This document shows positions 2,166-62,971 of a stretch of DNA of 64,000 bases, piece by piece; position 1 is the first letter of the stretch; the number at the start of each line of letters is the position of its first letter. Source of the stretch: Allacma fusca (taxonomy: Eukaryota; Arthropoda; Collembola; Symphypleona; Sminthuridae); contig OX359246.1 of NCBI GenBank assembly GCA_947179485.1, forward strand, positions 70,769,508-70,833,507, given 5' to 3'. Below the pieces are notes generated by a model that saw nothing but the letters and a program-made list of their open reading frames with translations, did not search any database and was not told the DNA's origin. A program made the position numbers and the translations under genes.

Positions 2166-3924
2166 TCTTCTTCGGAAATAAAAAGCCCCTCGGAGAGTAC
2201 AAAGTGTTCCGATGCAAGCGGGCTGCGGAAATTTTTGAATAAAAAAGGCGGGAAAATTTGTTGCTAGAAAAAGCGCTGTGGAGGAATTCAAAAAACCCTG
2301 AAGGGTAAGAATGACTTGAGGGATTAAGGAGACACTGGGGAAAAAGGAGGGGACAATAGAGGTAGATGGAGGAGACACTCCGGAGGGGACTGAGGGAATG
2401 AGGAGGAGAAGGAGGAGGAGGAGAAGGAAGAATGAGCGCCCTACGAAGACGTGGACTAGAACTGGAGATGAATGAGGTGGCTTTGAGAGCGTGGACGGAG
2501 TTGGTCTGTCTCACTCGCCCTGTAATGTTATTATGACTTAGAAGTCTGGGCTTGGAAGTGTTTGACTGCCGAGTGCGTCCTCCTCCTTCACAAAATATCC
2601 CAACAAGAGTGAGAGAGAGTGGAAAAAACTGAAGGTCGGTTGAAAATCCCTTGAGGAATGCCGGTTTCTCTCCCTACTCCTCTTCTCCTCTCTCACTATA
2701 TTTTTCCCTATTGTTCAAAGTCTATATACAAGAGTCTATTCATTTGACTCAAAAATCCTTCCCTCCTTCGGGCTCCCACTTCACTCTCACTACAGTACTA
2801 AACTTCAAGCCAAACTCCAACAAGCACACACACTCATCCGGAGCACCACACACTCAACTCTGGACTCACAGTCTCTGAAACACTCCAATAATAATGTGTA
2901 CTCTCTCCGACACGGCTGTATCTATCTCTCTATGTCTCTCTCCTTTGAAAGAGCATTTCTGTTCTGAGAGGACCAGATTCAGAATCCTCTGACTCTTTTT
3001 CTTTCCCTTTCCTCCATATACAACAACAACAACGTCAACAACACAGCCCAACAGCACAATAACATATGAGCCAGGGGTTGTCTTTTTCCTCAACCCTCTA
3101 CTAGTAACTACAGATATACTACTTTTTGGCGTCAAGAGAGTTGTAGTACAGTCCCTGGTTGTTATAAAGACTCTCCGAAAAAATCCGTAATGTTAAGAGT
3201 ATAGCCATTAGATTAACATGGGTAACGGCCCAGGGGTGCAGGGAGGGCTCTTGGGACGTGAGGAGTGGACGGTAAATGTGTAGGAATGGAAATTGCAGTT
3301 TCTGGCTATCCTTATTATGAATGCAGCACCCTTCCCTATGAACATGGGGCTTGTGCCTTTATAAACGTAACTTTGTGGAGGATCGTGCTCGTACATACAC
3401 AATTGTCTTCAATGGCTTATTAGCAGGGACTTGTGCCTGTACAGTGTGTACAGTGGGTTTTTGGATGGAATGAAACCTAAGGGGAAATAACTGGAAAATG
3501 TGGGGATATCCAGCTGGCATGGAGGAGTTGAGATGGGGATGGAGGGATTTTTGTTTGGGGAGGGGGGATTTTGAGGGGAGGCTTGGAGGAAAGGGAATGT
3601 TTTCGGAGAGGGGGTCCGGGATAGGGGGAGTGAACTGTATGAGCTGGGAGCTGATGTTTAACATAATGCTATTCTTGTTAAAGTATAGTTTGTGTGTATG
3701 AGAGAGGCTCATGAATAAACATGTGCACATTTATGGCCCCTTTTAAGTTAGATAGACTTGTCGGCTGCAGATATGAGTGTCTACTCAAAATAATGGGGTT
3801 GGACTCTGTTAGTCTGCTAAGGTGCAAATCCTCTCTTGGGGAAGCTTTGAGTGTTTGGCCGTAATGGGAAATTGTTGTCTCGGTTAGATATCATTATGGG
3901 AATTTTTGGAGTTGGAATGGGCAC
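2166..3924. other. No gene seen; purine-rich patch near 2300-2450
   Basis: A GGA/GAA-rich patch at about 2330-2450 produces a long minus-strand frame rich in Ser, Pro and Leu. I read that frame as a composition artefact. The rest is non-coding with no clear signal. Confidence 0.5.
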
Positions 3925-5262
3925 TTCTTGTGGTTAGCGCAATGGTAAATTTTGAGTGGAGCCCTAACGGCCAATCTTTAATGTTACAATACAAATTAAT
4001 CTTTAGTGGGAACATAAAGGTAACTATTTACTTTTACCCTAATGGTAACTTTTTACGGTTACTCTGGTGGTAACTTTTCACTGTTACGGAACAAATTAAT
4101 TTTTACTGGGACCAAAAGGGTAACTATTGGCTTGAAATGTTTACTTTTCTAATTTACGCCAATGGTAATTTTTGTCACTTACCCGAATCGTAAATTGTTA
4201 CCGATGCCTTAATTGTAACTCTTTACTGTTACCCAAAAAGTAATTTTAATGGCTGCCCTAATGGTAACTTTTTAGGGCTACCCCAATGGTAACTTTTTAG
4301 TGCTACCCCAATGGTAACTTTTTAGGGCTACCCCAATGGTAACTTTTTAGTGCTACCCCAATGGTAACTTTTTAGGGCTACCCCAATGGTAACTTTTTAG
4401 TGCTACCCCAATGGTAACTTTTTAGGGCTACCCCAATGGTAACTTTTTAGGGCTACCCTAATGGTAACTTTTTAGGGCTACCCCAATGGTAACTTTTTAA
4501 GGCTACCCTAATGGTAACTTTTTAGGGCTACCCCAATGGTAACTTTTTAGTGCTACCCCAATGGTAACTTTTTAGGGCTACCCCAATGGTAACTTTTTAG
4601 GGCTACCCCAATGGTAACTTTTTAGGGCTACCCCAATGGTAACGTGTTACGGATAGCCCAATGGTAACCTTTTACGGCTACTCCAATGGTAACTTTAGCT
4701 GTTACCCGAATGGTAATCTTTTCACTGTTACCCTAATGGTAACATTTCTAGTTTCCCACAAGGGTATTTTTGGCCGTTTACCCCAACGGTACTTTCTACG
4801 CTTACCCTAGTGGTAATTTTTGTCGTTATCTCAACCTTTTACGGCTGCCCCATTGTAACTTTTAGTTATTACCTTAATGTTAACTTTTAGCTGTTACGCT
4901 AATGGTAACTTTCAGTTGTTACCCTAATGGTAACATTTTACTGCTACTGAAATTATAACCTTATACTATTACCCTAATGGTAACTTTTCTAGTTTCTCAC
5001 AAAGGTACTTTTTGTCGTTCACCCCAACGGTAAATTTCTACAGTTGCCCTAATGGTAATTTTTGTCGTTAATCTCAATAGTGACTTTTCTCAGCTATACC
5101 CCCAGTGGTAACTTTTAATTATCACATTAATGGTAACTTCTGACAGTTACCTTAATGTTTATTTCTCACGTTTACCCCATTGATATTATTTTTCATTTAC
5201 CCCTAATGGTAACTTTAGATATTTACCCTAATGGTAAATTTGTCGTTTATCCCAATGGTAAC
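3925..5262. repeat. 25-bp minisatellite, about 1.3 kb
   Basis: The homogeneous core has sixteen copies of 'atggtaac' at an exact 25-bp step from 4261 to 4636. Units alternate between 'agggctacc' and 'agtgctacc', giving a partial 50-bp higher-order pattern. Older, diverged units spread on both sides from roughly 3925 to 5262. Many flanking units carry the dyad GTTACC-5 bases-GGTAAC (for example 4918-4934), which the homogenised core has turned into GCTACC...GGTAAC. No coding signal is visible. Confidence 0.93.
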
Positions 5263-7560
5263 TCTCCTCCTTTACTTCAATAATTGTATTTTCTCCAAAA
5301 AAAATCCCAATTGAATTAAATTATCCTCGTTGTACTACAAAGTTTCCTGGGCATAAAATGTTATTTGGCATTTAGTTTATTTAGTTCTAAGGAGCCTCAC
5401 CCATACTAAACATACATAGATTTACACCCCCCAGGACGTAGTGTGTGCTTTAAGAAAAATGTACGAATGAATGGTAGAGGAATAGGAATGGCCAGAGTGG
5501 GATAAAGAATCGACGCCGTAGAATTCCTTGGAGAGTGACACAATTGCGAGTCATAAAATTGGTAGTTATTTATTTATTTTTTTTAGCTGTCGTTAAGAAT
5601 CCACTCTTACCCTTCTGATACTCAAGGTGTGAATCACACATTGACCGAGTCATAAAGCGAAAGTTATCTGCGTGAAGATATGTGAGTCCTCCTGAGTGGG
5701 TCTGCGTATCATCTGTCTCTACTTTATTTTTCTTAAAAGGTACATTCCCAAAGAGCAGCCCCATATCTCCAATATAAGGGTTACCGTTAAAATACTCTTC
5801 ACACAGCTCACTCACTCACTCACTCACTCACTCACTCACAGGCACAGTGAGGATCCCAAATATTACTTTTGACTTGTTCGAAAGTTACTTTATGGAAAGT
5901 CTCCTCACAATAAATTTCCTTGTTTCTTCCCTCTCTCTCTCTCTCTGTCTCTATCTCTATCTTTCGCCCTCTCAACACAGTTCACAGGGATAGGTAACAT
6001 TTGAAAAGTAAACACACACACGTTATATACTTACCCATATGTAATTACTCAAGTATACCAGAATTTACAGAAAAACACATTATTATGAGCATGCAAGGGT
6101 GCCAAAAAACACGTTTGTCTCCCCCAGCCTTCCTCTAAGAGTTTCTTCAAACATTCAAATATTTCCTAATAAAAATTTACGTCACCCCAATAAAATTTCT
6201 GTGTATTTCAAGGGCGTAGGTCAGTATTTAAATCCCCAACAAAACATTTTCTCACTTTGTATTTTTCTTTAAATTTTGGCTAAAATAGTTCCGCTGGGAT
6301 TTGTTTAAAAACACCAGTACAAATTTAGGAGTACCAAATTGTCACATAAAAATCTACACATTTTTCCTATGTAAAGTATGCGTCATTGGGTAGAAATATT
6401 TTTTTTATGGAACCTTCTTTCTCAAATTCCTTGGGATGGGCAAGCTATGTACATATGAAGGATGCGTACATATATGTATCTATATGTATACATATATACG
6501 TATGGGTAAAGGACGCCTTATGACACAGAAAGATTTGAGTGCGGCATGAATCATGAATGAAGTATTTCATTCATTGTTTCATATCCCTTGTGTGTGTCCT
6601 CGTAATCTTCGAAGGAGCGTAAAAAGGAGTCTTGACCATTGTTATCTGTCTCCGTGTTTTGTCTCCCCTTTATGGTCAATGCTCATGTTATATGATGGGG
6701 ATGAGAGTTCCCAATGAGCACATCTTCCAGAGATTTTTCCCTTTTTTTCCGACTCGTGTTAACTACTCATCTCCTTGGAAATTGTGTGGGAGAGAGGATT
6801 TTTCAATGCTAGCAAATATGCAATATTTGAGTGGGAAAAAAATATTTTTACAATAATTTGCTTTGCATAAAAATTTTACAGGAATATAAAATTATTTTGC
6901 CCAGAATTTTTAAACTTTTATTACAGGATTTGAGTGCGATTTTGTGGAGTCTCATTTGTCCCCGTTGTTTTCTGTACATTTTTTAAATGCTTGTTTAGAG
7001 GGGTTGAAAATGTTTTGGAAATGCAAGAGATAAAATTAAGATACGTACATAATTACACTGAGCTGGAATAACTGTTTAGGATAGGTTGAAATGATAGTGG
7101 AGCAAGTGGTATTTAATGTCGGGAGTGATAATAAGCCGTAAGTATCGATTGTTGTGAGGACACAATAAGCTTTGAGTCTGGGAGACATGTACAGTGGACG
7201 CTGTTGGTGTTTTTGGGAGAAGAATAAGTTTGGACGTATAAAATTTTCTCTTGGTGAGAAAAATATTGGGTTGGAGAAGTGATTGTGTTTGAGTGTAGGG
7301 TAAAATATTGGGGTGTTTGGAAAAATTGTGTGGTTGGGATATTTTGTTGGGAGAGTGTGAATTATAGGAGGGTTGGAATAAAGTGAGGGGACTGTATATG
7401 GGGAAATTCTCCGAGACTAAGCGTCAGCTCGAGAATAGTCACTTGTGAGTCTTCCAGTGTCATGTCAGTTATGTGGTGTGTGTGAGAAATTCCAGGGGAA
7501 AACTGTCGGCTTAAAACCTTTGGCTATAAATTAGATGGCTTGGCTTAAAATTCCAGCTTG
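5263..7560. other. No gene recognised
   Basis: A minus-strand frame at 5570-5815 has protein-like composition (81 codons), but it has no recognisable domain and its 5' end runs into a CTCA microsatellite. The rest is AT-rich with scattered TATGTACATA-type simple sequence. I see nothing else. Confidence 0.5.
5807..5840. repeat. (CTCA)n microsatellite
   Basis: About eight tetranucleotide copies of CTCA are directly visible. A CT-rich run follows at about 5931-5947. Confidence 0.93.
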
Positions 7561-7624: not shown

Positions 7625-8600
7625 GATTGACAACGGTTCTCTGATTTTTCTTGGGTTGTTTTTGTATCAGGTGCATTTTTGGAGTTGTTTTGGTGACCGA
7701 TGCTTTTTTCGAATTGTTTTTCTGCCCAATTCATTTTTTTTAGTGGTTTTTGTATCCGATGCATTTGTTAAGTTGTTATTCTCTTGTACATTTTCTAGTT
7801 GTTTGTACGCAATTATCTAATGTATTCCGCCGGTTGGTTTTGTATCCGATGCATTTCTGTTGAAGTTTTCGGGTTCGATGTATTTTAACAACTTCCTTTG
7901 TTTCCAATGTATTTTTCTGCTTACTTTGGTTTTGGAAGTTTTGTTTAGCTGGCCCGTTGCATTTCTCCACCTGCCTTTGTGCCCGATGCATTTCTCTCGC
8001 TTTTTCGTAAGGAATTGTTTCAGACGTTTTTGGTTCCGATGTATTGTTCAGGTTACTTATATTTTGGACATGGTTTTCTGATAGTATGCGATGTATTCCT
8101 CTAGTTATTTTTGTTTCTGAATAATTATTATTTTTCTGCTTATTTTGTTTGTTGGCACATTTTTCTAGCTGGATTTGTGACCGATGCATTTCCATTTCCC
8201 GTTGATTTGTTTTAGATGTTTCTAATATATTTCCGATGTATTTACGTTGTTTCTTATGTTTCCGATGTATTTACCTTGTTTCTTATGTTTCCGATGTTTT
8301 TACCTTGTTTCTTATGTTTCCGATGTATTTACCTTGTTTCTTATGTTTCCGATGTATTTACCTTGTTTCTTATGTTTCCGATGTTTTTACCTTGTTTCTT
8401 ATGTTTCCGATGTATTTACCTTGTTTCTTATGTTTCCGATGTTTTTACCTTGTTTCTTATGTTTCCGATGTATGTTTTTGATTGTTATTGTGTCCGATGC
8501 ATTATTGTGGTGATGGTCATGTTTCCGATGAAATTTCCAGATTGCTTTCTTCCCAATGATTTTGTAATTTCTTGTAACTGTGCCGTTCATGCATTTCTTG
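7625..8600. repeat. Degenerate 29-30 bp minisatellite with a homogenised core
   Basis: The core runs from about 8233 to 8475. 'ccgatg' recurs at 8233, 8262, 8291, 8320, 8349, 8378, 8407, 8436 and 8465, an exact 29-bp step, and units differ mainly at one A/T position (tgtattt or tgttttt). Upstream (about 7625-8200) and just downstream, much more diverged versions of 'gtttttgtatccgatgcatttt' occur at loose 25-50 bp spacing. Because 29 is not a multiple of 3, all three plus-strand frames read the same Cys/Phe-rich peptide. The three overlapping open frames there are therefore artefacts. Confidence 0.92.
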
Positions 8601-12649: not shown

Positions 12650-14782
12650 ATTATTCTCTGTTGTATAATACGATTATATGCTACCAAGTATGAGTATAGT
12701 ATGAGCTCTTATAATTGTTATGAAGAAGCATAAATGTATAAATAAAATATTTAAAATTATATGTGTATTTTGATGGAATAATATTGTAAAAAATTTTGAA
12801 TGGAATTGAAAAACCAGAAGCTATTGAAGCCCGCAAATTATAATTAATAATACATATATAGGTAATTATTTATTGTAATAGTATATTTTAAAATACAGAA
12901 GATTGAGAACGGCACTAGACAGACAAAAGGGGGACAGGCTTATAAGAAGACACAAAATCAAGGCTGTAAACTAATAGTCCGGATGATTTACAAGCATTTG
13001 TCCCGAAATGAATAATATTTTGTAAAATTGCTGTCATAAGTCTTGACCACTAAAGCTCTATTAGCTATTATTATTACATCCATTATGATTCCTATCGCTT
13101 GAATAATAACTTACATATAATTGTATAGTCACCCTTAAAATTATATCCTACAGTAATAAGTATATGTACATATTCCATTCTACTGTAACAAAGCCTTTCA
13201 GCATTATTTTTCACAAGAAAGATTGAAATGAACAGGGAAGAGATTTTTTTTCAAAAACGATTCGCAGGATATATGTTGAGCAGTAAAATAACAAAAATTT
13301 CGTTATAATAGTTTACTTAAAATTCGTTAGGTTTGTTTTTAGAAATATCTCAATAGGATCTATATCTAAAATAATACTGATTTTTTGTATGCAGATTAAA
13401 TTCCCTTGACAAAGGAGAAGTTGCTTTTAGCGTCTCACAGTTCCCCAAATGTAATAATAATTTTAGTTCCCCGTTGTAAATAAATATATACTACAGTAAA
13501 GACGCATGTACATAGTATACAATCAGGAGGATATTGATAGGTAACAGGAATTTCTTAAAATTTGCCTACACTGATGTTACTCTTTAAAAATTAGAATACA
13601 ATTTTGGTCCTGACATGCAAATAATTCTTTGTTCATAACTCTAATGTATATAATAATTATATATTTATACTCAGGTATGTAGAAATTCTAATGTATTGAA
13701 TCCTCTATATAATTTCTTGTGGAATCCCAAAATTCCCAGCTATGGATATATATTGATACAATCAGAGGACAATTTTTACAAAAGCGCGGTCACAATTAGG
13801 GTTTCGCTCAGCTAAAACAAACCATATTTGGTTATAATTTCTTAAATCTATCTCCTATGACTGGACTTGGTTCTGCCTTTATTTTTCTTGTAGTAGTGTT
13901 TAAGGGGACGTTGCTTTTGGTTCCCAGGCATAGAATTTACTGTCTTGGATTATTGGTAAAATTTAAAGCCAATATTTAAAATATATTTAAATGTTTGCGA
14001 ACCCCTCTTCAAAACGCACTCTATAAAAAGAAGCTACAGTCTGGAATTATTATATTAAAAAGAACCTACTCTGAATAAATTTATGAATAGATACTTTTCA
14101 GCTACATTTTTTCCCAAAGGTTTTTGAAGTCGTTCATTTCAGCATTATAAATGATGTGCTAGTAATTAATTGGGATTTACCTTATTTTGGGATAACATAT
14201 TCATACAGGCTATTAATTATTAAACCTTCCAATAAAGTTTTAAAATATATTAATGTTTTTTAATTAAACCTTTTTCTCCCGCCACATTTGAGCGTAGAAA
14301 TATGGTATTAGTTATTTAACAGGAGGATCATTTCTTAGACTTAAAATCAAGTAATAATATTAACAATTAATTACAATAACCATATTATATTTGAGACTTA
14401 ATGCTGGGACTTAATCCTAATTAAAATTCTCATGTATAATAATAATAATTGTATATAGATATTCTCCTTTTTTCGTTGGCGATTCAATTTGTGCATCGTT
14501 GTTCGTGTCAAGTGTCTTACGTGCTGCTCTGGGATCCTTGAGAGACATTTTGGCCTGCGATTTTCAAATAGTCCCGGAATCGGTCCAAATATTCGTCGCA
14601 TTTTTTTTTGTATAATGTAGATACTAAAAATTAATTTTTTTTTGTATAACATGAGGGCTGTTGACATCCGTCCATTCTTCCCACCGTCCGTTCCGATTCA
14701 GTTTGGGTTATAGTTGAGGGTGTGACCGATGAATAAATTTTTGTTAAAGTTGATTGAAAAATCCAAGTAAAAAGAAAAGCTT
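12650..14782. other. No gene seen; very AT-rich
   Basis: The stretch is dominated by short A and T runs with no recognisable exon. The minus-strand frame near 14398-14667 ends in homopolymer-rich sequence and matches nothing I know. From about 12.6 to 21 kb the DNA looks more AT-rich and homopolymer-rich than the region to the right. Confidence 0.5.
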
Positions 14783-14788
14783 TTTATT
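14783..14788 (-). terminator. Candidate poly(A) signal for the distal last exon of the cytochrome b561 gene
   Basis: The forward tttatt reads AATAAA on the minus strand, about 170 bases after the stop codon of the terminal exon at 14957-15101. The position is plausible for 3' end formation of that isoform, though AATAAA is common in AT-rich DNA. Confidence 0.4.
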
Positions 14789-14956
14789 TTTTTTAAAAAA
14801 AGAGATGAAGCTTTACAGGGACAGAGAAGGGGGTTTCAGAGAAGGTGTCCGGGTCCAAATTTGTACAGGGAAACAACACGGGATGAAGAGGCGGAAGATT
14901 TGAAAGATTCTTTAAGAGATTTTTTTTTGCTGACTGTTTTTTTTGGGGGGGGGGGT

Positions 14957-15101
14957 CTACAATCGTTCGGAAAGCACAGCACTTCCCCTTCTGATGGGGC
15001 TGGTGCGAAGGAACCACACCATGAGAATCATCGAAGCAATAATGGACAAGCCGAGCGTGTTAACTATGATAGCCTCTTGGTTGTGAAGCCGGTACTCAGC
15101 C
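14957..15101 (-). CDS. Cytochrome b561, alternative last exon B (distal)
   Basis: Acceptor GATTAAAG precedes GGCTGAGTACCG. The exon enters in the same phase as exon A, completes the split Gly codon and runs 48 residues to TAG. It carries its own helix 6 (AIIVNTLGLSIIAS... ending VWFLRTSP), matching exon A at the EA-IVN-LG core, but with a different short tail (RRGSAVLSERL). Right after the stop, the minus strand has a run of about 11 C followed by A's. The polypyrimidine tract is weaker than that of exon A. Confidence 0.85.
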
Positions 15102-18100
15102 CTTTAATCACCAAAACCAAAGAGAATCTTAATTAGCCAATGAAAAAACACTCATCAAATAAGCCCGTGCAGATTATAATAATTAATTTCAATCCGATAT
15201 TAATCTACTTCAAATTTATTGTAATCATAATTTATTATTATTGTTAAGCACCCCAAACTCAATTCACACTATTTTCAAATCCAGTTTGCTCACTCAGTTT
15301 TTTTAAGACTATTAATCCCAATAATTATTATTACTTTCTCAAGAGTCATAACTATTATTTAATATTAATTCAAATCATCACCCTTTACACACAGGCATAT
15401 TTAAATCAAAATAATTAATATCCACCCAAAGATTTCCATTATAAAGCATTACCCCATTTGCATTAATCCTAATTTCCCAATTTTTTCTCTGCTTTATTTA
15501 ATCCAAATTAAAATTCCAATTATTCCCATAATAACTAATTTATCAACTTTTATTTAAAAAAAATTAATGAACCAAATCTTTAGAAATACTGCCTTCCTTT
15601 CCTTGTTTAGCATTAAATCTTGTCACTGTTACCCAAATTAATTTAAATAAATCTCAATTTATAAATTAGTATCTCAACCTAAGAATATTATTACTTTCAG
15701 ATTTTTTAAAATGAAATTTCAAAATAAAAGATTATTAATTATTTTTACGCAGAATTGTTACAGCTCATGCTATAGAGAAATAGAAACCCTCAAGATCATG
15801 CTATCTTGAATAAAAAGAATTACAGAGAAAACAAGAAATAAAAAGAAACAACCAAAGCTGTAGATCAATAATTAGTTATGGACTATCAAATAAATAAACT
15901 GGGGCTGAAATCATCTTCACAACAATAGGGAAGGAGGGGGTGTCTCACTTCTCCCCCAAAGAGACCCCCTAAATAAAACAGGAGACAGCAGTCTCAGATG
16001 AAATTGAAATTATGGAAGGCGGGAAAGGAAATTAAATTTAAATAATAATGTGCAAATAAATGAATGACCAAAATATAAATGACAAAATAAAATTATCAGT
16101 AATAGTTCCATTTAAATTTTTTGTTTTTACTACGGTAATAATAATTAAATTTCAAACAATCAACCTTGTAATTTGAACAAATCATAGGATTTTGTATACG
16201 TAAAACTATATGTTTGTTTGGAGGGGAACTCTGGATCAATAATAATTATAATTAATATTATACTTAGTTAAACATGTGGCCAAAAATCCTGCTTATTTCA
16301 TATTTAAAATTCAAAGATTTCTCTTAAATTGGATTTAAATGAGCCCTAAATGTAATTCTTTTAATAATAATTATCCAATAAAACTCATTCAAACAAATCA
16401 AAATGTTCAGAGGCAAGATTTAAAAAAAGGCTGGGGCTGCTTCGGCCTACATGTAAAATATTTCTATTAAAATAATTCCTATATAATAATTAATCGTACG
16501 CTCTAAATCTTTTTTTAAAATTCGCAACAAAATTCTAAAAACAGAAATTAATCTCAAAAGGCTCCCTACACAATTCCCTGCTTGGCTCTACGCATATACA
16601 GATATATATTTTAATATTCAAATTATTGAATATTAAAGATCCTGCATTTTTTAAAAAAAAAATCGTAATAAACCTTAAAAATCTTACACTAGCTCAGGAT
16701 TTTTTTTTGTAAAATTCTGTAAAAGAATACTTAGGATAAAAAAATTGTGAGTAAACTCCTCACTGGCACTTGAGCTAAAAAGAATAATTGGATTTAAAAT
16801 TCTATGTATGTATAAAGCTATAGCTAAATATGTAAATGTATATTCATTATATATTATTTTTAAAACTTAATGATATATAGTTGCAATGATTTTTTTAACA
16901 TGTAGGATTCAAAATTGATTTTTTCCCATGTATTTACTTTGCATTTTTGTAAATGTGAATTATTTTTCCATGCATTTTTGTTTCCTTGCATTATATTTTT
17001 TAAAAGTGTCTGTACAAAAAAAAAAAAAGGGTTCTCAGCATCTGCTCTTTTTTTGAGTATTTTGAATTCTTGAGAGAAAAAGGCTGATTAGCATTTATGT
17101 TGGTCTCATTTTGTGTATATTTTTTTAATTAATTATTATTATTTTTATAGTAATACAAAAAAAAACAAACAAATGTAGATACTTGAAATGTGTTATGCTT
17201 ATGAAATGTTTTCTTATATATTTACAGGAGAGAAAAACTTAATGAAGAGAAACGAAATTGAAGAGGGAAAGTTCAAAGGTCAGTGTGGTAGGTCATTCGA
17301 ATGGGTAGCTTTCGAACAGGCCGACCATGGAGTGTGAATACAATGGAAATAGCTGCAGCCGCTATAACGACCCCTAAAACGTTTACTATCAGGGCCTCCT
17401 CCGTTTCCCACGTTGAGTAACTTTTCGCCCTAAATTTTTGTCAGGTAGGATCAGTGATCAAGTCAATTATTTTTACACATTTAATTCAAGCCCTATCACT
17501 CAATTTCCACCCTCAACTCGCTTTTAAAAATTCTTATTTTTCTAACAAGAATAAATGTTCTCAAGACATATATCTTCGTAAATGTATCATTTACTCTGTC
17601 ATTCAAAATTTCAGATACCTCCTGGAAAGTTCCTCAACTAATAATCAGCTCCTGGGTTCACATTAATAATAATTATTCTTATTTTTTGTACTATAAATTT
17701 TGTGACTTTGGAGATTTCTCATCGTGACAGTGTACTCTCTCGCCATAAGAGATCCCAATTGTGTATATTTCATTGACGAGTTGGGACACCAACATAATTG
17801 TAAGTTCCTGTGCAAATCCTAATTTTTATTTTTTCAGGCCCATTTGGACACTTTGGCTACACAAATATTTGATGTATTTATAGTTTCTCACAAACTTTGT
17901 CTTTAAAATTTTTAAATGAAATCAAAATACATCGGCTTTGGATTTATAAGCATAGTTTTTTTAATTTTTGTTTCCAGACACCGTATCAAACGAAAATTCA
18001 AACTAGGAACTGGCTCTGGGCTCATGTTGCTTTTAAAGGCAAAGTTTAAGGTCTATAAGGTGGATACGGAGATAAATAAAAATATTCACTGATTGTGAGT

Positions 18101-21100
18101 TCAGGGGAGGGGGGATTACTCGTTCTGTAGAGAGTACACTGTTGGATGTATTAATTAAACTCAAAGGTATAAAATTTGGTGTCAAATTTCTAGTGCTTTA
18201 CAAAAACATAGGAATAATTGTGTCAAAATAAATAAATAAAATGTAACAAATTTTTGTTGGAATTTTTCCAGACAAGGACTCACCCCAAAGTGAAGATAGC
18301 CTTCTCAGTAATTCCAGTGACTGCTGTCGCACAAGCCATCACAAAAGTGATGATGCCGAAAGTTGCGTGGGTGGGGACCAGGGCAGCTCGACAGGCTGCT
18401 GTTCGGCCTTCGCAACATAGCAAAATGAGGAAACTGAAGAATCCAACGACGAACTGACACAGTAAAAAAAAAATATAGAAAATAATTTTCTTGAAATTTA
18501 AAGATCTAACACAAATTATATTCGTATTAGGACAGATTTATTGCTTATACTGTATTGGGATGTTTACGAGGATTTGTACTTACCATTTAATTTAATGTCA
18601 AATAATTAATTAAGCATGGACTACTACTATGACTAAACATTTGATTTTTTCTATACTTACTTGAATTGCAAACAACCCCATGGTGGTAAGTCCCAGCCAG
18701 GAATGGAGGGAGTAGAAATTTGGGATCTTCGGGTTTTCCAACTCATGAGAGTCCCAGACGGTGAGGAAACCAATGGCGATGCAGACAATTGAAAAGGCAT
18801 GGAACACTGTGTGCAGCAGCTTCACAAAGATTTTCCGACAGCAAGTCACCATTCGGTAAAACAACATTGCTGGAAATATTTTCAATGAAATGAATAATTA
18901 TTTTTGTGCAAAAAATGTTTTGAAGGAAAAATAGCTAATTACAATAATTTAGTTAAAATTTTAAATGAATAGGTTTCTGTCCTCCCCCCCCCCGTTATTT
19001 ATCTATAATTTGGCTTACAAAATCCCGAGAAGAATATAAACCCGGCCACCATGAGAGTTGGATGGAAATTAAATTCCTTCTTCGGCTCCGACTGTAAAAA
19101 CACAACAAATTAATTAATGGACCAAAACTCTTGTGTAAGAACTTACATTTTTTTGCTTGTGCATCTAATCTTGATAATAATAATTTTTAGGATTGATTTT
19201 TTAAAATTGCTTTAGAATCCGATTTTAATCATCAAGAATAATTTCGTCAGAGCAATTTGGATAACTTCAAATTATAAATATTATTGTTATTTATTTTCAG
19301 AATTGTGGAATATTTTCAGAGGAAACCCGCCCATTACCTGCCAAGCATACCCGCCGCGGTACATCATCACCCAAAAGATGACTAAGACCAGGGAGGCCGT
19401 GAGAAAGATTCCAGTGATTAGCATGGAGAACACAAATCCCACTTTGCTTCCCATCGTGTCTTCTTCCTTCGACCTGCAAAGATTCAATAAGTGCGTCGTT
19501 AGTCATTGTCTCTGTCATTGTATAAAATTTCCATCAATCCTAATTAAAATAGATGTAACAAGCAAATTTTTAACCCCTCCACGTCTTTCCCGTCGTAGGG
19601 AGCAAATAACTTTCGATCTTAGAAATTAAAAACTTTAATGTTCAAGGGAAGGGATTCCAGTTCCCCCAGAATTTTAATTATTGCAACAATTTCTCCTTTA
19701 ATATTTTTGTACTTTACAATTTTGCCTCTTAGCAGAGAGACTCTTAGACATGTGTCAGGCAGGAATACATAATTATGGGTGATGACGAGGCTTAAACTAG
19801 AATTTACACTGTCATTAATTACCCATTGACAGTATCTTATGGATTTTAACATGCACTTTGCATATGACCTCAATGTTGACTGTTCATTATTTGCTATTAC
19901 GTCTATCTAAATATATTCAGACTTGCATATGCACACATATAATTTCCTATTATGCATTTTGACTTGTCTGTATACCTATATAATAATTTCAGGTAAAGAC
20001 AAAGACCATTACTGTATACACAGTCCCATAAACGCCCTAATGACACTTTTTTGACAGAAGTCAACTCAAGCTTGAAATTGGAGGAAAAATCAGCTCACTG
20101 GAGAAGAACGCCTTTATAACCATCGTCTCTATTCGATACAGAATTTTCATGCAACTTTCAGTAATTACATATCTGGCCGTTACAATAACAATCTACTGTG
20201 ACTGAATAATTTTAAGTAGTAATGCATTTGCCTTCAAATGTAGTTATTTTGTTTCGTAAATGCAGATACTGTTTTTACAAGGGAGCTTCTTGTATAAAAA
20301 GCGTTCACTGCACAAGTGAATACTAATAAGATTAGCATTGAGATTAATTATTCAGGAATTCCTTTAAAAACATTTGTAACTATAGGGACATTATTTTATA
20401 AAAGCGTCTGCTATTCCAAGAGTCCGGAGTATACGTATTTATTTACATGTAAAATTTATACAGTCATGCTATTTCCATTCAAATTGGTACATTGACTATT
20501 AATTGACTTGTAATTAAACGTTAGGAAATGAAACGGAACTTCCCCTGTAATTAACGCTGACTAATAGTACCATGACTGGAAATGAATACAGTCAGTCCTT
20601 GGCATATAGTAGCATGTCAAGATTCTACTTTTATATTCATTTCCTCTGTATTGGGATGAATATAGGAATGTCTCTAAATATTTTAGCCCCTGTATAAAAA
20701 ATATTATTGAAGGGAGTCTTCTCTATTGAGAGTGGACTGTAATTATATAGATTTCGCATTAGAGTTCATAGCCCGTATGGACTTTTATGAGGACTGTCCT
20801 GCCTCATAATGGAACTTGTTGAGGGAAGTTTTATTTGAATGGACTCAAGTGGACATAATGATAAGAGTCTGCGGAAATAAATGGGCAGAAAATAATTGCC
20901 CATTTTGCCGTTTGTGGGACAGTGGACACGAAAATCGGTCTGCGAAACGACCTCCTTTGAACTCACGCATTTATTTTCCCTCACACAATATCCTCATATC
21001 AGGCACGTCAATGTAGAGGACCCCATATATGTAAGTACTCCTAGTAGGAGTGATTATATGTACATATATGACCATTTAAAAGAAACTACATTGATATTCA

Positions 21101-60802: not shown

Positions 60803-62971
60803 GTTAGTAAATATTTAAAGTTGTAAATTAATAAGTGTTATTAGACTTGGGGTGTAGTAACCCTTTAAGTTTTAAAATACAGTCAAAAATATTTGGCTAG
60901 TACGTTCAATTATTTGCGTTTTGACGGATTTGGAGTGTTTTAGATGAAGTGGTTCAAATTTCAAAGCTACTGGAAATTTTGGTGATTATTTTTGTGGCGT
61001 AGTTGAAAATAAATACGATTTTGTATTCAGTAATAATTATTGTTGATTGATTAAATTAATTAATTTCAGGGTATTGAAGCTAATAAGCGTCAAAATGAGA
61101 AAAATTGGAGCCGAAATATAATTAATGTCATGTAACATTCGTGTGATAATGGAAAAAGATTGTTTGTTATGTCAATATGGGATTTCTGATACTTGTGCTA
61201 ATTGTTGTTATTTACGTCAAAATGTGAAACAGTACTTTCAACTTTATTGTTTGAAGATAATTATTTAACGGATTTGTCAATCGCTGTAACATCGAGGGAA
61301 CGCTCGCATATAAAAATGTTGTTAAATTATTTTATGTTTAATGTAAGGATGTAAATACGAGGGGGTTAAATTTGTTTGTGTTTGTTGTAATTAATTGTTT
61401 TTTTTTTTCGTTTAGTGCTTTTCCCGTTGGCCAGATGAGCCCTTCGAAGAGATGGATAGCACTTTGGCGGTTCAGCAATGGATTCAGCAAACGATAAATA
61501 GAGATGCATCTCTGATAAGTGCAATCCTGACCCCTCCTGAAACTCAAGATGAGGAAGTTTGGAAGTATGAGCACTTGAGGCAATTTTGCATGGAATTAAA
61601 TGGTCTGGCCGTGGTTTTACAAGTGGAGTGTTCCCCTGAGACTTGTAACCAAATGACTGCTACGGAGCAATGGATCTTTTTATGTGCGGCTCATAAATCA
61701 CCCAAAGAGTGTCCCGCCATTGACTACACCAGGCATACTCTGGATGGGGCAGCTTGTCTCCTCAATTCTAACAAATACTTCCCTAGCAGGTTGGGACAGT
61801 TGTTTTTGAAAATGGTAGCAATAGAAATTACTTGCTGTTTCAAATGTATTCAGACAGTTAATTAATAAGTACAAGCTAGAAGTTGTGTCTTCACAGAACG
61901 TTACGAGTTTCCATATGGAAACATTTGACTTATTTTAGGATCTTCTTCGGTGTCATTTTAGAGAAAGATTTATCAGTTGTGTCGAAGCGGGTCACAGTTG
62001 GATATTTTAGTTACTTGCGGTTGGATTCTAGTAAATAGCGTTTGGTCCATTGTTTGTTGAATGATCGATAGTAGAATTGAGGAGTTTATGCTGTTATTTT
62101 ATTTTTCGAAGTTAAGAAAAGCAGCTCACAAGTTAGTACTTATTCTTAATACTGTTTCTGCTTAAGTTTTATGTGTAAATGATGTCAAATGTTTTGAGCG
62201 TTTTCATGAGATTTTAAAAACTGACACAACCTACATGAAAGCGTATGGTCCCCACAAAACTCTTTAAACAGGACTAAAGTTTTAAAGGGCTTCTTGTTGT
62301 GTATATGTTAGCTGAAATGTGGTTGCATGAGGAAATTAATATTTAACCGACATTCCGAGTCAACCTCACAAATTAGAATTTAGAAAAGTTCTTGTATTAT
62401 GAAAGGAGATGTCAAATATTAGAAAGGTGCAAGTATTCTCCCGAAATACGTGAAAAAATCCTGTTCAATGAAATGATCTTGCAGTAGAACTAGTTACAAA
62501 AGTTTAATTAGAAATATTTTATCTTTATTAAAGACATTAAAGTGTCATAAATGTTCAGCATGATGTTTAATGTACAGTGTCGATTTAAAGCTATTTGTAA
62601 TATTAACAATTTATAAGAGGTTAAATATAATAATTATGCTTTAATGCAGGGTATCAATTCGTGAGTCATCGTTAGGGAAATTGGGATCGGTTTGTCGACG
62701 CGTCTACCGGATTTTCTCTCACGCCTATTTTCATCATAAAGCCCTCTTTGATGAATTCGAGTCGAAGTCATATCTCTGCAAGCGATTCACGTCTTTTGTC
62801 ATCAAGTATAATCTAATGTCAAGGGAGAATCTCATCGTGCCGAATATGGAAGTAGACAGTAAAGGCGTAGTCACACCCAGTACTGGCGGTGCTAACGTCG
62901 GAGGTGGAGACACTGTCAAGCAAAGTAATGGAGCCCCTGGGACAGTGGTGACTTCCGAATCTGAAGCTTAA
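60749..62971 (+). CDS. MOB4: MOB4 (phocein/Mob-like protein), gene span with three coding exons
   Basis: MOB4 is a non-catalytic adaptor of the STRIPAK complex, where it sits with striatin and PP2A and restrains Hippo-type kinases; it has also been linked to vesicle traffic. Joining 60749-60802, 61416-61789 and 62650-62971 gives 249 residues, phases agreeing. The N-terminus ([17 protein letters not shown]) and the core match animal MOB4 almost residue for residue, for example [20 protein letters not shown] and [20 protein letters not shown]. The MOB zinc ligands are visible: Cys90 and Cys95 (ECSPETC) and His167 and His172 (SHAYFHH). The usual length is about 225; the extra residues form a Gly/Thr/Ser-rich linker before the conserved terminal SESEA. 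It is transcribed away from the cytochrome b561 gene. Confidence 0.97.
61416..61789 (+). CDS. MOB4: MOB4 exon 2
   Basis: The exon is 374 bases, with acceptor ttcgtttag and donor gttggg, leaving in phase 2 (split Arg). It covers most of the MOB fold, including the two zinc cysteines and the run up to NKYFPS. The frame would run on 24 codons into the intron, so the apparent open frame is longer than the exon. Confidence 0.96.
61790..62649 (+). other. MOB4 intron
   Basis: 860 bases, AT-rich, starting gttggg and ending ttaatgcag. No other feature is seen. The other coding intron (60803-61415, 613 bases) is similar. Confidence 0.9.
62650..62971 (+). CDS. MOB4: MOB4 exon 3 (C-terminus)
   Basis: Acceptor ttaatgcag; the exon completes Arg143, then reads [17 protein letters not shown], the zinc histidines, [16 protein letters not shown], and a low-complexity tail ([12 protein letters not shown]) ending in SESEA and TAA. 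The tail is about 20 residues longer than in vertebrates. Confidence 0.96.

Follow-up and report, generated by a model that had tools for sequence, protein, structure and literature searches.

A likely Nemy-type cytochrome b561 gene of the springtail Allacma fusca with two probable mutually exclusive last exons

Cytochrome b561 isoforms and duplicated terminal exons in other animals

The fly cytochrome b561 Nemy is the product of CG8776. In the fly, evoked transmitter release changes in opposite directions in mutants that lack different nemy isoforms, and the isoforms act on different ascorbate-dependent enzymes, the authors suggesting different production sites (PMC4523183). The RT-PCR of the same study (Knight et al.) combined one reverse primer for all isoforms with isoform-specific forward primers, so that the variants shown differ upstream, and the words "last exon" are absent from that text, in which no coding swap of helix 6 and tail was noticed (PMC4523183). 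A further report on fly nemy concerns the choice of poly(A) sites within the 3' UTR and not a change of last exon (PMC13228862). The event described for human CYB561 is an alternate promoter (PMC9274141), and the sequence set of PMC10691727 kept one sequence per gene, isoforms being set aside.

Terminal exons that exclude one another have been described in other fly genes. PGRP-LC, pip and CG42235 have mutually exclusive 3' variable regions, which in pip are tandem-duplicated terminal exons (PMC9013439), and in ewg and nrg ELAV acts past the proximal poly(A) sites, with the result that the distal last exon is used (PMC8055025). Duplicated mutually exclusive terminal exons as such are already known; for cytochrome b561 genes, a limited search of the open-access literature brought up no published case of a duplicated last exon, and within the scope of that search the case described here appears to be new.

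We analyzed a window of 64,000 nucleotides from Allacma fusca (assembly GCA_947179485.1, contig OX359246.1, positions 70,769,508 to 70,833,507 of the forward strand). In it lies what we take, with good probability, to be a gene for a Nemy-type cytochrome b561, an ascorbate-driven electron carrier of membranes. An old tandem duplication of the last coding exon would have left this gene with two last exons that exclude one another, A (proximal) and B (distal). The predicted arrangement resembles that of pip, PGRP-LC and CG42235, in which 3'-terminal exons are used one at a time, those of pip being homologous repeats (PMC9013439), and differs from it in that there are two copies, that a transmembrane helix is exchanged and that no convincing RNA pairing was found.

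Gene model and assignment to the Nemy type

The cytochrome b561 gene lies on the minus strand, and in the gene model four shared coding exons are spliced to last exon A or last exon B (Table 1), with GT donors and AG acceptors throughout and open frames of 241 residues (isoform A) and 237 residues (isoform B). Exons A and B each have an AG acceptor and their own stop and are entered in phase 2 through a glycine codon (GG|G) from one shared donor at 18284 (GGG|GTGAGT), i.e., as far as can be read from the sequence, two acceptors are in phase with a single donor, as expected of mutually exclusive last exons. The spliced frames and the alignments given below confirm the original prediction that the two exons are entered in the same phase, can be aligned with each other and end in different stops. 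It had also placed the common donor at the end of an "exon 5"; the donor itself stands, but it ends coding exon 4, the exons A and B being alternatives for coding exon 5, and it would close an exon 5 only when the numbering includes a 5' UTR exon. A possible acceptor AG is found just above 19473 (minus strand), nineteen bases upstream of the ATG, and an upstream 5' UTR exon is therefore probably present. The frame between this possible acceptor and the start codon (19455-19473, minus strand) is open, so an N-terminal extension encoded by an upstream exon is possible.

Table 1. Coordinates of the coding exons and of the candidate 3' signals (positions in the window).
Feature	Position	Strand	Remarks
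Coding exon 1	19338..19454	-	start codon at 19454, helix 1
Coding exon 2	19019..19091	-	haem ligand H49 (Dcytb H50), F46
Coding exon 3	18661..18869	-	R69, double-cysteine loop 1, K76/K80, H83, metal-site H105, H119
Coding exon 4	18284..18453	-	double-cysteine loop 2, R155, H162, E183, K184, F187
Alternative last exon A (proximal)	17273..17429	-	157 bp; luminal loop, helix 6, tail, TGA stop
ATTAAA, candidate poly(A) signal of A	17124..17129	-	about 145 nt past A stop; motif match only
13-T run (U in RNA)	17016..17028	-	about 100 nt past A signal; ELAV-type lead
Alternative last exon B (distal)	14957..15101	-	145 bp; luminal loop, helix 6, tail, TAG stop
AATAAA, candidate poly(A) signal of B	14783..14788	-	about 170 nt past B stop; motif match only

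Both isoforms matched the Pfam profile PF03188 (E 2.7e-38 and 131.8 bits for A, E 1.2e-38 and 132.9 bits for B; curated cut-off 23 bits) and human Dcytb (5zle; E 1.6e-34 and 3.3e-34, respectively), and both also matched an Arabidopsis relative. By sequence the protein is a six-helix member of the same family as human Dcytb (CYBRD1, 5zle/5zlg), with the four haem histidines in common. These haem-ligating histidines (H49, H83, H119 and H162) all map to shared exons, which supports the shared haem core of the original prediction. The same holds for the other mapped residues of the haem and the ascorbate/metal sites of Dcytb (F46, R69, K76, K80, S104, H105, N114, Y116, R155, E183, K184 and F187; roles according to PMC6123691 and PMC10691727), the exceptions being the positions of R187 and K225, at or beyond the splice junction. 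The ascorbate-site residues of Dcytb are kept at both sites except for Ser in place of Asn107 and Val in place of Met156. Unlike Dcytb, the springtail protein has Gly for R187 and a second cytoplasmic loop that is four residues longer and contains cysteines, and its gene has two alternative endings.

Both cytoplasmic loops carry double cysteines (TCC in loop 1, LCC in loop 2), and a cysteine-rich sequence in both cytoplasmic loops has been reported for Nemy, whereas none was found in the other insect groups or in human proteins (PMC10691727). Insect Nemy proteins are further matched at H2-3 (Lys), H4-7 (Arg), H4-3 (Val), H2+21 (Ser), H2+22 (His), H3-3 (Tyr) and H4+25 (Phe), and the EDXXLL tail motif of the CG1275 group (present in most but not all of its members) is absent from both tails. 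The gene is likely of the Nemy type, the assignment being made by motifs. A pattern search for relatives in prokaryote genomes gave 32 pattern matches, 0 of which were confirmed.

Elsewhere in the window, two plus-strand segments (61416-61862 and 62645-62968) appear to belong to a single gene of the Mob1/phocein family (Pfam E 1.8e-23 and 2.5e-10). There are also two tandem arrays, a large one with a 25-base unit at 4015-5263, inside which rows of period 50 and 75 occur, and one with a 29-base unit at 8217-8473 (95% matches) that is open in more than one frame.

Homology of the two last exons and signs of constraint

The peptides of exons A and B reached a global alignment score of 45 (maximum among 5000 shuffles 16) and a local score of 67 with 14 of 31 residues identical (best shuffle 46, none of 2000 as high). 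In tblastn searches within the window exons A and B found each other (4e-5 and 3e-5) and had no further partner below E 0.1, the next matches having E 0.34 and 1.1, and a search of exon B against the whole assembly returned only B itself. On these alignments A and B are diverged homologues, and the origin of the pair by exon duplication, as originally predicted, is supported by their being mutual tblastn partners and by the absence of an equally good alignment among the 2000 shuffles. No second copy of exons 1-4 was found within the window by tblastn (other matches E 4 or worse), which indicates that the exon and not the gene was duplicated. Tandem gene duplication is common and cytochrome b561 matches occur at five other places in the genome, and one might regard B as what is left of a second, tandem cytochrome b561 gene after loss of its other exons, and not as a working alternative exon; this is extremely improbable, given the lack of exon 1-4 matches better than E 4 elsewhere in the window and the fact that B still has an open frame in phase with the upstream donor.

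The PF03188 profile search of the 392.7-Mb assembly (91 contigs) gave nine exon-level matches at six places. One of these is a related gene near 4.74 Mb of C1 (4737000-4746999; exons at about 3519-4689 of that stretch), which is identical to the springtail Nemy-type gene in 101 of 187 core residues and has its last intron, judged by eye, at the same place and in the same phase. A single last exon was found in it, identical to A in 15 of 31 and to B in 13 of 32 residues, and it shares with A a loop that is one residue longer. There was no B-type exon better than E 1.8 in 30 kb near this gene, so it neither confirms nor dates B. A last-exon tree (A, B, the related gene, Dcytb and a partial Arabidopsis sequence; 42 columns) recovered the split of A plus the related gene in 49% of 200 bootstraps. 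The related gene is itself Nemy/CG1275-like: it keeps the four haem histidines, has no double cysteines, and carries Met and Cys where Dcytb has the metal-binding His108 and Tyr117, respectively. By these residues it may have lost metal reduction.

When helix 6 was aligned to that of Dcytb, exon A scored 47 and exon B 52, with none of 2000 shuffles as good in either case. The GC content of the two exons (A 0.49, B 0.51) is that of the shared exons (0.44-0.51), compared with 0.32 in intron 4 and 0.26 in the gap between A and B, and among the best 25 of the 145-base stretches taken every 20 bases through 12957-18283, the highest lie on or across exons A and B. GC content is 0.27 in the 300 bases before B and 0.40 in the 300 bases after its stop, i.e., the contrast is sharp upstream and weaker downstream. 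At third codon positions GC reaches 0.62 in exon B and 0.60 in the shared exons, and is lower in exon A (0.46). Over 33 aligned codons, A and B differ at 16 first, 12 second and 24 third positions (28/66 for the first two together vs 24/33; Fisher P 0.0055). Free drift of one copy ever since the duplication would give about equal differences by codon position, and the excess at third positions therefore argues against such long decay.

We also simulated neutral decay by substitution from A or from B (1000 copies; indels and splice sites lay outside the model). With 0.5 substitutions per site, 12 and 14% of the copies (from A and B, respectively) were stop-free and a Dcytb score of at least 47 was kept by 0/1000 and 5/1000; at 0.5 substitutions per site or more, stop-free copies made up at most 14% and copies scoring 47 or more at most 0.5%. 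From its match to Dcytb, its GC content, the third-position skew and this simulation, exon B looks functional and does not look long dead, which speaks against the dead duplicate that had been named beforehand as the outcome contrary to the original prediction. It is very unlikely that B is such a duplicate, kept by chance, with isoform A as the only form made. A is the proximal exon and equals the single last exon of the related gene in loop length, but in B the frame and the acceptor are both intact, the GC content is that of an exon and helix 6 is Dcytb-like with a basic anchor, and neutral decay does not give the skew of the A-B differences toward third codon positions. A very recent loss of function, no older than about 0.1 substitutions per site, is possible, because 53-55% of the simulated copies were still stop-free at that distance.

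The reverse case, with B as the true, constitutively used last exon and A as a relic or a rarely used exon, is hardly probable either. The alignment of B to Dcytb needs no insertion in the loop and has the slightly higher score, B is followed by AATAAA where A is followed by ATTAAA, and the 18 bases before the acceptor AG of B contain 10 T against 5 in A (with 10 pyrimidines in both); however, the marks of constraint are common to A, and the only last exon of the related gene resembles A at least as well as B.

Parts of the protein exchanged and choice of the last exon

With both exons taken as functional, the exchange begins at the luminal pocket. The junction glycine falls at Dcytb R187 by ungapped count, three residues after F184; the gapped alignment places it at R187 for A and has a gap at R187 for B. 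R187 of Dcytb lines the luminal pocket, F184 is a luminal ascorbate contact, and helix 6 forms part of the dimer interface (PMC6123691). The luminal loop has a net charge of -2 in A and -1 in B, and the best 19-residue hydropathy of helix 6 is 2.73 in A, 2.29 in B and 2.45 in Dcytb. The cytosolic tail has a net charge of +3 in both, so the original contrast between a basic tail A and the tail of B fails. The emphasis on the tails, as possible determinants of trafficking or partner choice, was also too narrow, since the swap covers the loop next to the luminal ascorbate pocket and the dimer-interface helix as well. The HTDL end of A, which we take to be class I PDZ-like, and RRGS in B, presumably PKA-like, were seen by eye and are too short to weigh. 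In Dcytb, K225 contacts a cytoplasmic haem propionate (PMC10691727); the corresponding position is basic in both isoforms (A K230 if gapped or R229 if ungapped, B R227) and in five of seven insect Nemy proteins (PMC10691727).

The choice between A and B is likely made by competition between the poly(A) site of A and splicing to B. Transcripts ending at the ATTAAA after A would give isoform A, and bypass of this site would let the polymerase reach B, whose acceptor would then take the shared donor. Both candidate poly(A) signals were identified by motif only, in DNA that is rich in AT, and the first AATAAA after A lies over 1.7 kb downstream. Together with the bypass in fly ewg and nrg and the poly(A) site choice in fly nemy, these candidate signals make bypass the leading model.

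Control by ELAV itself is possible but doubtful, and we keep it only as a lead. UUUNUUU has 12 matches in the 400 nt after the A stop compared with 1.6 in dinucleotide shuffles (0/300 with as many), but the 12 matches overlap one another and lie within or beside two runs of T (17165 and 17028); at least 12 were present in 0.3% of 2544 overlapping 400-base stretches of the window and in 5.1% of the 78 low-GC ones. The springtail gene resembles the ELAV-regulated ewg and nrg in having a proximal and a distal last exon with a T-rich stretch after the proximal candidate signal; its own two last exons are homologous to each other, and ELAV regulation, shown for ewg and nrg, is only a candidate here.

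It is quite unlikely that both exons are used with their choice set by competing RNA structures rather than by bypass of a poly(A) site. The fly genes PGRP-LC, pip and CG42235, in which competing RNA structures are reported to govern mutually exclusive 3' regions, would be the precedent, but intron 4 and the A-B gap share no complementary stretch longer than an AT-rich 14-mer, which 7 of 200 shuffles reached, and such pairing is a weak candidate.

Under the preferred reading, two last exons chosen at the poly(A) site of A, electron transport is expected of both isoforms, because shared exons encode the haem ligands and the named ascorbate residues. They would differ in the luminal loop, helix 6 and the short cytosolic tail, and hence in dimer pairing, location or partner enzyme. 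More speculatively, and rather unlikely as it stands, the swap might be a functional selector by which one gene makes two non-interchangeable electron donors through a changed luminal loop and dimer helix, one form serving, for example, peptide amidation (PHM) and the other amine hydroxylation (TbetaH). Drosophila nemy appears to reach a split of the PHM/TbetaH type via variants differing upstream. As the two springtail forms would be identical except for helix 6 and its flanks, they would offer a direct test of whether that part of a cytochrome b561 picks the dimer or the partner.
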